From: Halorubrum sp. DM2 | GTDB taxonomy: Archaea > Halobacteriota > Halobacteria > Halobacteriales > Haloferacaceae | Length of the DNA stretch: 64,000 bases | Assembly (NCBI RefSeq): GCF_901686465.1 | Contig: NZ_LR594487.1 | Span: forward strand, 716,894 to 780,893 | Reading direction: 5' to 3' | Shown here: piece by piece, positions 9,629 through 39,178 of the stretch | Layout of the letters: every line of letters starts with the position of its first letter | Position numbering within the stretch: position 1 is the stretch's first letter | Position numbers and translations under genes: made by a program | Notes under the pieces: generated by a model | What the model was told of the DNA's origin: nothing | Database searches by the model: none | What the model saw: only the letters and a program-made list of their open reading frames with translations

Positions 9629-9810
9629 GTCGGCGCTTCGGTTCGGGGTAGAAATAGGTTTTCTGCCCGGGCTCGGAGAATGAGGTTCCACCGAAGGAGA
9701 GAGTCGTCCGTGCCCGAACCGGATCCGGCGCGGCCGCCGTGTGCGGCGAATCGGAGCGCTCGCCCCCTATCTTATTTACCGTGGCTCCGAATTCGATGGA
9801 TACGCGGCAC

Positions 9811-12666
9811 ATGAGTCCACACCCAGACGCGATCCGCGTTCTCCACGTCGACGACGATCCGGACCTCGCGGAGCTCGCCGCGACCTACCTCGAACGCGAG
9901 GACGACCGGATCGACGTCGAGACCGCGACGGACGCGACCGAGGGTCTCGACCGCGTCGCCGACGGCGATGTCGACTGCGTGGTCTCCGACTACAACATGC
10001 CCGGTCGGAACGGAATCGAGTTCCTCGAAACCGTCCGCGAGGAACGACCGGAGCTCCCCTTCATCCTCTACACGGGCAAGGGCAGCGAGGAGGTCGCCAG
10101 CGACGCGATCGCGTCCGGGGTCACGGACTACCTCCAGAAGGAGAGCGGGACCGGGCAGTACGCCGTCCTCGCGAACCGGGTCACGAACGCGGTCGAACAG
10201 TACCGGACGGGCCAGCGGGCCGCCGAACTCGACCGGATCCGCACGCTCGCCAGCGAGATCAACAAGGCGATCGTGCGCGCCGACTCGCGGGCCGCGGTCG
10301 AGCGCCGCGTCTGCGAGATCATCAGCGACTCCGACCCCTACCGCTTCGCGTGGATCGGCGAGGTCGACGCCGAAACGAACCGAGTCGAACCCCACGTGTC
10401 CGCGGGCGTCGAGCGCGGCTACCTAGACGGGATCACGATCACGACCGACGAGCGCCCGACCGGACGGGGACCCGCCGGCACGGCGATACGCGAACGGCGG
10501 GTCGCCGTCTCGCAGGACGTCGCCGAGGATCCCGACTTCGAACCGTGGCAGTCAGCGGCGGTCGAACGGGGGTTTCGGTCGGTGGCCGCACTTCCGCTTG
10601 AGTATCAGGACACGCTGTACGGCGCGCTCGCCGTCTACGCCGACCGCCCGAACGCCTTCGACGCGACCGAACGCGACCTGCTCGACGAACTCGGCGACGA
10701 CATCGCTCACGTCATCCACTCGTTCGAGGTCCGAGAGAGCCTCCGCGAGGAGCGCGACTTCATCGAACAGGCACTCGACGCACTCAACGACATCTTCTAC
10801 GTCATCGACGCCGACGGGACGTTCCGTCGGTGGAACGACCACCTCGCGGAGACCACCGGCTACATGGACGAGGAACTCGGGGAGATACGGGCGACCGACC
10901 TCTTCCCAGAGGAGAATCGGGACCGGATCTCCGCTGCGATAGAGGACGTGTTCGAGACGAGCGGAACGACCGACGAATCCGCGCTGCTGACGGCGGACGG
11001 CGAACGCATCCCTTACGAGTTCACCGGATCGCGACTGACCGACCGCGACGGCGATCTGATCGGACTCATCGGAATCGGCCGAGATCTCACGGAGCGCAAA
11101 CGGCGCGAGCGACGGTTGGCGCGGCTCGTCGACAACCTGCCGGGGATGGTCTATCGATGTGCGAACGAGCCCGGGTGGCCCATGGAGGACGTCAGGGGAG
11201 AGGTGACGGAGCTGACGGGGTATCATCCCTCCGACTTGGAGGGCCACGCGGGCGTGTACGGCGACCGGGTCGTCCATCCCGACGACCGAGAGGCGGTGTG
11301 GGAGTCGATACAGGACGCGGTCGACGAGCGCGAGCCGTTCGAGATCACCTACCGGATCCGCACCGAGGCCGGGGAGACGAAGTGGGTCTGGGAACGCGGT
11401 CAGGGGGTGTATTCCGCCGACGGCGACGTGGGGGCGTTAGAGGGGTTCGTGACCGACATTACCAGACAGGAGGAACACAAGCGGGCCATCAACGCGTTAC
11501 ACGGGACCGCGCGGTCGGTAATGCGGGCCGAGACGGCCGATCGGGCCGCCGAAATCGCCGTCGACACCGTCAACGACGTCCTCGATATGCCGGCGTGCGC
11601 CGTCCACCTCTACGACGAGGGCGACCGCGCGTTAGTCCCGGTCGCGTGGACGGACCTGACCGAGGAACTCGTCGGCGAACCGCCGGTGTTCGAACTCGGT
11701 GAGGGGCTCGCAGGCAGGGCGTTCGAGTCGGGGGAGCCGGTGATCTACGGCGACCTCTCGGAGGTTTCGGAGCCGTTCAACCCGGACACGCCGATCCGGA
11801 GCGAGATCATCCTCCCGCTCGACGACCACGGCGTGCTCCTGATCGGGTCGACCGAACGCGACGCGTTCGACGACGTCGACGTGTCGCTCGCGGAGACCGT
11901 CGCGGCGCACACGACGACCGCGCTCGACCGCATCGAGCGCGAACGGGAACTCGAGCGCCAGAACGCGCGGTTAGACGAGTTCGCCAGTATCGTCTCCCAC
12001 GACCTGCGGAACCCCCTGAACGCGGCCGAGGGACACCTCGACCTGGCCCGGTCGGAGCGCGACGACGAACACTTCGACGCGGTCGCGAGGGCGCACGGCC
12101 GGATCGGGTCGCTCGTCGACGATATCCTGACGCTCGCGCGCGAGGGCGCGGCGGTGACCGAGTCCGAACCCGTCGAGTTGGCCGATCTCGTCGGGGACTG
12201 CTGGGAGAACGTCGACACCGGCGGGGCGACGCTCGCGATCGATGTCGACTCCGCCGTCATCGCGGATCGGAGCCGGCTCGCACAGCTGTTCGAGAACCTG
12301 ATCCGGAACAGCGTCGAGCATAGCTCGACGGGCAGCCGGACTCCGTCCGGCGACAGCGTGGAACGCGGTTCCACGAGCAGTCGGGCAGGGCCCGACGATA
12401 GTGTAGAACACGGCGGCGACGACCTGACAGTCACGGTCGGCGACTTGGAGACCGGATTCTACGTGGCGGACGACGGTCCCGGAATCCCCGAGGACGAGCG
12501 CGAGCGGATCTTCGACGCCGGGTACTCGACGCGCGACGACGGGACCGGGTTCGGGCTCGCTATCGTCGAGGAGGTCGCCGAGGCGCACGGCTGTGACGTC
12601 CGAGTCACCGAGAGCGAGGCCGGCGGTGCGCGCTTCGAAGTCACGGGGTTCGAGCCGGTCGAGTAG
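9811..12666 (+). CDS. Hybrid sensor histidine kinase (REC-GAF-PAS-PAS-GAF-HisKA-HATPase)
   Basis: A soluble 951-residue kinase. The N-terminal receiver domain (1-125) has acceptor Asp60 in CVVSDYNMPGRNG. A GAF domain follows (about 140-300), then two PAS domains (about 315-430 and 435-555), a second GAF (about 560-720), HisKA with His730 in FASIVSHDLRNPLNAAEG, and the ATPase domain with the N-box near residue 827 and G-boxes VADDGPGIPEDE and GTGFGLAIVEEVAE. No membrane spans, so the signal is intracellular. The ATG at 9811 is chosen; 9796 and 9739 are alternatives. An Arg/Ser/Asp-rich insert after the N-box (about 834-868) is encoded by palindromes (see repeat). No cognate output regulator is adjacent. 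Confidence 0.92.
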   Translation: MSPHPDAIRVLHVDDDPDLAELAATYLEREDDRIDVETATDATEGLDRVADGDVDCVVSDYNMPGRNGIEFLETVREERPELPFILYTGKGSEEVASDAIASGVTDYLQKESGTGQYAVLANRVTNAVEQYRTGQRAAELDRIRTLASEINKAIVRADSRAAVERRVCEIISDSDPYRFAWIGEVDAETNRVEPHVSAGVERGYLDGITITTDERPTGRGPAGTAIRERRVAVSQDVAEDPDFEPWQSAAVERGFRSVAALPLEYQDTLYGALAVYADRPNAFDATERDLLDELGDDIAHVIHSFEVRESLREERDFIEQALDALNDIFYVIDADGTFRRWNDHLAETTGYMDEELGEIRATDLFPEENRDRISAAIEDVFETSGTTDESALLTADGERIPYEFTGSRLTDRDGDLIGLIGIGRDLTERKRRERRLARLVDNLPGMVYRCANEPGWPMEDVRGEVTELTGYHPSDLEGHAGVYGDRVVHPDDREAVWESIQDAVDEREPFEITYRIRTEAGETKWVWERGQGVYSADGDVGALEGFVTDITRQEEHKRAINALHGTARSVMRAETADRAAEIAVDTVNDVLDMPACAVHLYDEGDRALVPVAWTDLTEELVGEPPVFELGEGLAGRAFESGEPVIYGDLSEVSEPFNPDTPIRSEIILPLDDHGVLLIGSTERDAFDDVDVSLAETVAAHTTTALDRIERERELERQNARLDEFASIVSHDLRNPLNAAEGHLDLARSERDDEHFDAVARAHGRIGSLVDDILTLAREGAAVTESEPVELADLVGDCWENVDTGGATLAIDVDSAVIADRSRLAQLFENLIRNSVEHSSTGSRTPSGDSVERGSTSSRAGPDDSVEHGGDDLTVTVGDLETGFYVADDGPGIPEDERERIFDAGYSTRDDGTGFGLAIVEEVAEAHGCDVRVTESEAGGARFEVTGFEPVE
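12313..12411 (+). repeat. Array of 7+3+7 palindromes inside the kinase ATPase domain
   Basis: Four perfect 17-bp palindromes with 7-bp stems and 3-nt loops start at 12313 (GTCGAGC/GCTCGAC), 12335 (GCCGGAC/GTCCGGC), 12358 (GTGGAAC/GTTCCAC) and 12380 (GTCGGGC/GCCCGAC). A shorter GTGT-AGA-ACAC sits at 12401. Starts are 21-23 bp apart. All are in frame and encode the variable loop SVEHSST..SR..DSVERGST..DDSVEHG of the ATP-binding domain. Stem sequences differ but complementarity is perfect. Confidence 0.9.
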
Positions 12667-25368: not shown

Positions 25369-25741
25369 ACCGAAGCCCCGGCCGCTCGACTGTACGTGAC
25401 TTCCTTCGGTGAGAGCGACTCCGTGACCGAGACCACCGAAGCCCCAGCCGGGAGGCGGACAGACGCTCGCTGTGCTCCTCGCTCGGTCGCTTCGCTCCCT
25501 CGTTGCGGTGCTTGCGTCGCCTCTGCCCGCCTCCCGGCTGCCCCTTCGAGTCCCGCCTCACCCCGCCCCGCACAGCCTCACGCCTCCCCAGCCTCGTCGG
25601 CCGGCCTCCGCTTCGCTCCGGCCGCCCGACTCCCTCGCGCGGCGCTCTCGCCGGCGGCTTCGCCGCCGGCTGTCCGAGGGACCTTCGGTCCCTCGCTACT
25701 CGCGCCCCTAAAAGGGCGCTCGGAGGCGCGCGCCGACCGGA
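25369..25741 (+). repeat. Modular hairpin repeat, copy 1
   Basis: First of four related intergenic elements. Box A at 25435-25450 (ACCGAAGCCCCAGCCG), with a degenerate extra box A at 25369-25384. A 17-bp inverted repeat (25447-25463 and 25522-25538) encloses the core 25462-25521. Box B 25539-25599, hairpin 1 25599-25624, box C 25627-25646, hairpin 2 25650-25670 (stem GCCGGCGGC, loop TTC), hairpin 3 25676-25694 (stem GAGGGACC, TTCG loop), extra hairpin 25702-25719, box D 25720-25740. Lies between the peroxiredoxin and the P-type ATPase. Not coding: reading frames here follow only palindromic composition. Confidence 0.85.
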
Positions 25742-32399: not shown

Positions 32400-32711
32400 G
32401 CGGTGGCGCGTGCCTGCGAGCGGCCGCCCCCGGCGGCCGCGAGTAGGGAGAGACCGAAGGTCTCTCTGATAGCCGGCGGCGCAGCCGCCGGCGACAGCAC
32501 GCGCGAGGGAGTCGTGGTCGCCCCCGGCGACCGCGACGAGGCTGGGGAGGCGTGAGGTGCGGTTGCTGTGCGGTGCGGGGCGGGACTCGAAGGGGCAGTC
32601 GGGAGGGTGGCACACGCTCGTTGCGCTCCTCACTCAGTCGCTCGTTTCACTCGCTCCCTCGCTGCGGTGCTTACGTCACCTGTGCCGTCCTCCCGGCTGG
32701 GGCTTCGGCGG
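32400..32711 (-). repeat. Modular hairpin repeat, copy 2 (core inverted)
   Basis: Same family as 25369-25741, on the opposite strand. Box D 32400-32419, hairpin 4 32420-32440 (stem GCGGCCGCC), hairpin 3 32448-32466 (stem GAGAGACC, loop TTCG on the minus strand), hairpin 2 32472-32492 (stem GCCGGCGGC), box C 32495-32514, hairpin 1 32516-32532 (stem GGTCGCC), box B 32534-32597, inverted repeat 32600-32614 with 32681-32695, box A 32694-32711. Relative to boxes A and B, the core at 32615-32680 is in the opposite orientation to the other three copies. Lies between two convergent genes. Confidence 0.85.
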
Positions 32712-38867: not shown

Positions 38868-39178
38868 GCGGTGGCGCGTGCCTCCGAGCGGTCGCCTCTG
38901 GCGACCGCGAGGAGCACCGCGCGAGGGAGTCGGCTAGCCGGAGCGAAGCGGAGGCTAGCCGACGAGGCTGGGGAGGCGCGAGGCTGCGGTGCGGAGCGGT
39001 GCGGGGTGGGATTCGAAGGGGCAGCCGCGAGGACGCTCCTCGGCGTTCACGAGAGCGAAGCTCTCGTGAGCCAATCAGAACGCGAAGCGTTCTGATGACG
39101 ACGTAAGCACCGTAGCGAGCAACGCGAGCGAGGAGCGCAACGAGCCGCGGGAGTCCTCGCGGCTGGGGCTTCGGTGGT
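38868..39178 (-). repeat. Modular hairpin repeat, copy 3 (with extra hairpins)
   Basis: Box D 38868-38887, hairpin 2 38888-38908 (stem GCGGTCGCC), box C 38912-38932, hairpin 1 38932-38960 (outer stem GGCTAGCC), box B 38960-39023, inverted repeat AGCCGCGAGGA (39023-39033) with TCCTCGCGGCT (39154-39164), box A 39160-39178. Inside the inverted repeat, next to the core (39097-39153), lie two additional perfect hairpins: TCACGAGAGC (39047-39069) and ATCAGAACGC (39074-39096), each with a GAA loop and a 10-bp stem. Between convergent genes. 39179-39368 holds nothing else recognisable. Confidence 0.85.

Follow-up and report, generated by a model that had tools for sequence, protein, structure and literature searches.

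The Rickettsia palindromic elements (RPE) and the coding palindromes of Wolbachia are dispersed repeats found in frame in many unrelated and often conserved genes, as well as in intergenic regions; an RPE is ~105-150 bp long and forms one long stem with terminal inverted repeats (PMC2229807, PMC10969869). In Archaea, Methanocaldococcus jannaschii carries repeats whose open frames have become fused to protein genes, according to the citation in PMC2229807. The REPs tagged by GTAG or CGTC are short hairpins, often heterodimeric, that bear an unpaired tag on a single side (Di Nocera 2013). They occur between genes and inside bacterial ORFs, where their clusters encode 43-82 residues (PMC3733652). 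Haloquadratum carries small transposase-free repeats, the PATEs and SMR-A: in the parts of PMC3119063 that concern them, PATEs are related to the termini of IS605-type elements, while SMR-A, of ~110 bp and with terminal inverted repeats, enters the near-terminal palindromes of such elements by a mobilisation left unexplained there. Finally, the mitochondria of Nematomorpha keep perfect inverted repeats in coding sequence alongside protein function (PMC6649704).

The locus analysed here lies in Halorubrum sp. DM2, in a stretch of 64,000 nucleotides that we call the window. It holds an array that very probably consists of two tandem copies of a protein-coding palindromic repeat of haloarchaea, which is 45 bp long and dispersed across Halobacteria. 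Searches of the open-licence literature on its peptide, on in-frame inserts, and on REPs or palindromic repeats of haloarchaea gave no earlier description of this unit. Among Archaea, it corresponds to the selfish protein-coding palindromes of Rickettsia: it is palindromic, has many dispersed copies, is inserted in frame into unrelated genes whose orthologues include empty ones, and is also intergenic. The likeness drawn here is one of dispersal and in-frame insertion, and the unit belongs to another domain of life. Unlike an RPE, it measures only 45 bp and has two short hairpins, in which the linkers are fixed and the stems are hypervariable but compensated, and in kinases it builds up tandem arrays at one favoured site. 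The M. jannaschii elements come from another archaeal lineage, and we liken them to the unit solely from the citing description in PMC2229807. Like the tagged REPs, the unit consists of short hairpins and lies both between genes and inside ORFs. On the complementary strand its second hairpin is preceded by GTC, often CGTC, which may be comparable to the REP tag. However, this putative tag is either CGTC or TGTC instead of a single tetranucleotide, and whereas a stem sequence characterises each REP family, the unit has variable stems and fixed linkers. The word 'halo' is absent from the survey of these REPs (PMC3733652). Some copies adjoin tnpB, which recalls SMR-A, but the unit is shorter and lies near tnpB in some copies only, and the relevant parts of PMC3119063 do not describe SMR-A inside proteins. 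The palindromes of Nematomorpha are long and single, their arms encode conserved protein, and they are not dispersed (PMC6649704), unlike the haloarchaeal unit.

The array (12312-12413, + strand) is part of the gene of a hybrid sensor histidine kinase (9739-12666, +), an ORF of 975 codons with Pfam receiver, GAF, PAS, PAS, GAF, HisKA, and HATPase_c domains. It is placed between the N-box helix of the HATPase and the next strand, and the loop that it encodes there reads SVEHSSTGSRTPSGD-SVERGSTSSRAGPDD-SVEHG. The first-pass annotation had reported four perfect 7+3+7 palindromes in this N-box loop, and an exact scan of the window recovered all four, starting at 12313 (GTCGAGC-ata-GCTCGAC), 12335 (GCCGGAC-tcc-GTCCGGC), 12358 (GTGGAAC-gcg-GTTCCAC), and 12380 (GTCGGGC-agg-GCCCGAC), with start-to-start spacings of 22, 23, and 22 bp. 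The shorter fifth palindrome that it added to the series was an over-reading, as this 4+3+4 repeat (12401-12411) runs into the beginning of a third unit, which is truncated. The true period of the array is 45 bp, or 15 codons, with two hairpins per unit, H1 and H2, and the stems of the first and third palindromes can be extended to 8 bp (12312-12330 and 12357-12375).

Unit 1 (12313-12357, +) is made of H1 (12312-12330), ggca (12331-12334), H2 (12335-12351), and gacag (12352-12356), and unit 2 (12358-12402, +) of H1 (12357-12375), agca (12376-12379), H2 (12380-12396), and gatagt (12397-12402). The truncated third unit (12403-12413, +) has the first arm and the loop of H1, GTAGAACACGG, which encode VEHG, and lacks the second arm. 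The general layout is H1-RGCA-H2-GACAG, in which H1 codes for VEHxST and H2 for SRxxxxD. Both complete units match R1, a covariance model built from kinase units only and used with a cut-off of E <= 1e-3 (G000:729206-729250, E 6.5e-15, for unit 1; G000:729251-729295, E 2.4e-14, for unit 2). In the AlphaFold2 model, the insert is a low-confidence coil (pLDDT ~50) that connects the N-box helix to the following strand, next to a confidently folded ATPase core. Such a predicted flexible surface loop would fit tolerance of the insert rather than a defined function, and the effect of the array on the kinase itself is most likely near-neutral.

The first-pass annotation also held that coding need alone does not produce this palindromy, which is borne out by recoding. 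Among 100,000 recodings that kept the peptide and took their codons from the kinase ORF itself, none gave four such palindromes, and multiplying the individual probabilities of the four yields 3.5e-7. When single-stranded, either DNA strand of the array folds into exactly the H1/H2 hairpins (z = -7.1 for the + strand and -7.2 for the - strand, with none of 200 shuffles equally stable). The same segment also has a stable fold as RNA (z -4.9).

We examined ~140 distinct kinase N-box segments, from which units were extracted by their peptide motif and not by their pairing. Among the ~254 distinct units, Watson-Crick pairs occupy 93% of the stem cells in H1 and 83% in H2, despite widely differing stems. 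Pairs are also swapped at sites that are synonymous on both sides: the Val-third/Ser-third pair is G-C in 127 cases and C-G in 89, and the Glu-third/Gly-third pair is A-T in 120 and G-C in 100. In alignment A1, there are 144 two-sided cells against 46 after shuffling and a covariation of 0.388 against 0.156 (0/500), a signal that is lost when the partner column is slid by 1-3; A1 is a hand-trimmed subset, and the unselected counts from the ~254 units are the fairer figure. Among orthologue-like kinase pairs, picked by flank identity and possibly including paralogues, 217 stem differences are two-sided (190 of them paired in both members) and 129 are one-sided. Homologous loops thus encode the same peptides and keep their DNA pairing by two-sided changes. 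Because these changes include synonymous sites, the pairing is selected or copied at the level of the nucleic acid. The amino acids encoded at opposed stem positions of H2 co-vary as well: R-A goes with P-D, R-T with S-G, R-P with A-D, and R-I with S-D.

Selection on the sense mRNA should leave more G-U than A-C mismatches in the stems. Stems with a single mismatch show 44 A-C, 29 G-T, and 43 transversions, and the kinase units overall have 82 mismatches of the G-U type versus 141 of A-C. Given this lack of preference for G-U, the constraint or copying process most likely acts on DNA and not on the sense mRNA.

The unit is not restricted to kinases. R1 had matches in 52 of the 59 genomes sampled, and we inspected forty regions containing them. 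In-frame copies were identified in aconitase, a class I tRNA synthetase (LeuRS-like), a phosphoesterase, a molybdopterin oxidoreductase (formate-dehydrogenase-like), a mercuric-reductase-like protein, a PIN-domain ATPase, an aldehyde dehydrogenase (ALDH), a HerA-like protein, SAICAR synthetase, EtfB, the V-ATPase E subunit, acetyl-CoA synthetase, a P-type ATPase, and others; further units form intergenic arrays. The identified coding copies all use the frame DSxERSSxSRTQSGDD, the peptide by which they were located, so that copies in other frames could have escaped. The linkers between adjoining hairpins are mostly AGCA, GGCA, TGGCA, or GCA after H1 and GACAG or GACG after H2. GAC is nearly always found 3' of H2, and the next base makes it CGTC or TGTC on the other strand. 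In three loci (L287, L291, and L299), the unit lies ~50-110 bp downstream of tnpB. There, the double hairpin occupies the expected place of the guide-RNA scaffold of an IS605-type element and may modify that RNA.

A broader covariance model, R2, detected ~18 more intergenic double hairpins in the DM2 genome (E <= 3e-5), which have the linkers in common but not the stems. This brings the genome to a total of ~25 copies; the median for the genus is 22 (E <= 1e-5). R2 matches occur in 38 of 39 congeners and, in a phylum-wide sample, in 17 of 24 members of the class and in none of the 124 genomes outside Halobacteria. The coding copies found in the DM2 genome are all in kinases. Weak R1 matches in other coding sequence of this genome (e.g., at 2193712) were judged to be due to chance.

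Several of these genes also exist without the unit. Acetyl-CoA synthetase (acs) is occupied in 12 of 52 congeners and empty in ~38, the difference being exactly 45 bp. For aconitase, 3 of ~150 genomes in the family have an occupied allele and the rest an empty one; with one further genome, the occupied alleles span two genera, and the difference is again 45 bp. Occupied merA-like alleles are longer by 45 bp in one genome and by 51 bp in two (L313, L314, and L327). The six additional bases are a matched +3/+3 lengthening of H2 that stays in frame, the alleles reading ACCG-GACgcaGTC-CGGT and ACCG-GAACGCgacGCGTTC-CGGT. This symmetric change suggests that the tips of hairpins are rewritten as a unit, and it fits template switching or a swap with another copy. 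A mercuric reductase of solved structure (PDB), homologous to the merA-like protein, is missing just the residues that the insert adds. The empty sites of acs, aconitase, and the merA-like gene all read GAC|GAC, a codon pair that makes up ~1% in the kinase ORF. Several acs copies are decaying, with uncompensated mismatches, which is the behaviour expected of a passive insert; the DNA-level constraint is therefore not universal at every site. Sites shared between species could reflect one old insertion followed by losses, or gene transfer, instead of many insertions. The proposal that a repeat family spreads in frame is thus supported by the dispersed in-frame copies and by the occupied and empty alleles, from which we infer that the unit is mobile. 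Genome comparisons and counts of Y1 transposases identified no transposition event and no mobilising enzyme.

The N-box loop of kinases is by far the commonest coding home of the unit, and copy number there differs among orthologues. Matching loops are present in 193 of 391 Halobacteria genomes and 47 of 86 genera. The SVEHGSTSSR-like repeats in this loop of haloarchaeal kinases, which led the first-pass annotation to suggest a repeat family, are explained by the 45-bp unit. Five kinases of the DM2 genome carry the unit (seven units in total), and ~10 others have the same N-box without it. An empty kinase orthologue in this genome (L015) reads AACAGCGTGGAACACGGC, which equals the first arm and loop of H1, at the place where another kinase (L035) has four units. 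A half-hairpin already present in the native N-box may be the reason why kinases are favoured.

Within kinase arrays, the H1 of neighbouring units share the Val-third base in 39 of 144 cases and the Glu-third base in 38 of 144, against 63 and 71 expected (0/5000 shuffles); next-but-one units have the same base in 45 of 53 and 43 of 53 cases, respectively. Hence, the synonymous codings GTGGAA and GTCGAG of one peptide alternate a-b-a-b along the arrays beyond chance, with an effect size that is approximate because related arrays were only partly collapsed. The H2 of adjacent units show no comparable avoidance. The alternation may arise because identical neighbours are lost by slippage, or because arrays grow in steps of 90 bp.

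Three other hairpin arrays lie between genes of the window. A double hairpin at 25650-25695 has the layout of the array unit, reading gagtag-H-gaca-H-gagagc on the - strand, and matches R2 (G000:742537-742587, E 3.8e-4). A triple hairpin array at 32420-32492 (+) has long GC-rich stems and the related linkers gagtagg, tgata, and then gacagc. The double hairpin at 39047-39096 (+) reads TCACGAGAGC-gaa-GCTCTCGTGA gcca ATCAGAACGC-gaa-GCGTTCTGAT gacgac. Its hairpins, of 10 bp each, are contained in a 69-bp intergenic repeat (39042-39110) that has 10 copies in the genome at 91-100% identity (L201-L210) and no match in Rfam; several copies are embedded in a longer context with the complementary flanks CCGCGAGGCGGGCG ... 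CGCCCGCCTCGCGG. A stretch of 29 nt (CAATCAGAACGCGAAGCGTTCTGATGACG; 39070-39100), made of the second hairpin and its flanks, also occurs unchanged, and in frame, within a kinase array from a different genus (L110, ~1165). We also observed a second scaffold of fixed linkers and variable hairpins, GTCGTTCGA-hairpin-TCGTGATGACGA-hairpin-TCGAACCA, which occurs in frame in four kinases (L058, L120, L174, and L310) and between genes at two sites of the DM2 genome (L204 and L205).

The unit is made up of two short perfect hairpins and conserved single-stranded linkers (RGCA between them, GAC or GACAG after H2), with stems free to change provided that they are re-paired. We propose that it would be moved or copied through a folded ssDNA intermediate recognised by the hairpins and the adjoining linkers, would land next to GAC (GTC on the complementary strand), and would persist in genes where its one hydrophilic frame is tolerated in a surface loop. 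The native codons of the kinase N-box, AACAGC-GTSGARCACGG, would already correspond to the first arm and loop of H1, so that units could recombine in register there, giving tandem arrays of 1-5 units and turnover between paralogues.

Other explanations start from what the gene encodes. A useful peptide could have driven the tandem duplication of the N-box loop in kinases, with the palindromes as a by-product of codon choice, and the predominance of this loop among coding homes and its variable copy number would then follow. We consider this very improbable, because the palindromy is not expected from the peptide, opposed amino acids co-vary as DNA pairing demands, and copies in unrelated proteins and between genes contradict a kinase-specific repeat. 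Hairpins in the kinase transcript that control translation or stability would account for the stable RNA fold, yet such a role is very unlikely: both DNA strands fold equally well, Rfam has no match for the window's array or the related loci, and the unit occurs at unrelated positions of unrelated genes. We rejected this reading on the types of mismatches.

The remaining alternatives concern the way in which the hairpins are made and spread. Stems might be unselected and rewritten by quasipalindrome-type strand switching at replication forks, the units spreading by recombination or conversion and not by transposition. Whole-stem change at one orthologous site in the merA-like gene and the excess of two-sided over one-sided differences are in line with this, but it leaves unexplained the dispersal to unrelated GAC|GAC loci and the conserved linkers, and the acs copies gather mismatches that are not corrected. 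As a full account it is rather unlikely; template switching may nonetheless operate together with the dispersed coding palindrome that we favour. A special case of the latter, which we also regard as somewhat unlikely, would make the unit a non-autonomous IS200/IS605-type relative mobilised in trans by TnpA, with the GTC beside the hairpin as target tag. The three resolved sites all have this GTC, three copies lie 3' of tnpB, and, according to the relevant parts of PMC3119063, haloarchaea are rich in IS605-type elements. However, the copies adjoining tnpB may be insertions into an element and not its ends, some genomes with 20-21 unit matches have no Y1 match, and the number of Y1 transposases shows no correlation with that of elements (Spearman -0.06, n=59), such tracking being an expectation and not a strict definition. 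An IS200-type transposase was thus rejected as the driver. A bolder version is decidedly doubtful: a class-wide system of DNA-hairpin propagation, in which a dedicated enzyme reads the fixed linkers and stems are rewritten as matched pairs, so that structure is inherited and sequence is not, and in which the in-frame kinase arrays tune the ATP-binding domain through their copy number.

Coding palindromic repeats were previously described in Rickettsia, in Wolbachia, and in one archaeal case; the dispersed 45-bp palindrome extends them to a whole archaeal class, where it sits in core enzymes whose genes have cleanly empty alleles in sister species. Since some haloarchaea can be manipulated genetically, both the movement of the DNA and the effect of 15-residue insertions on an enzyme are open to direct testing. 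For genome annotation, the variable SVEHGSTSSR-type loops of kinases and the 15-residue inserts elsewhere can be treated as one repeat family. The unit also provides an unusual case in which the base pairing of DNA dictates which amino acids occur together in a protein.
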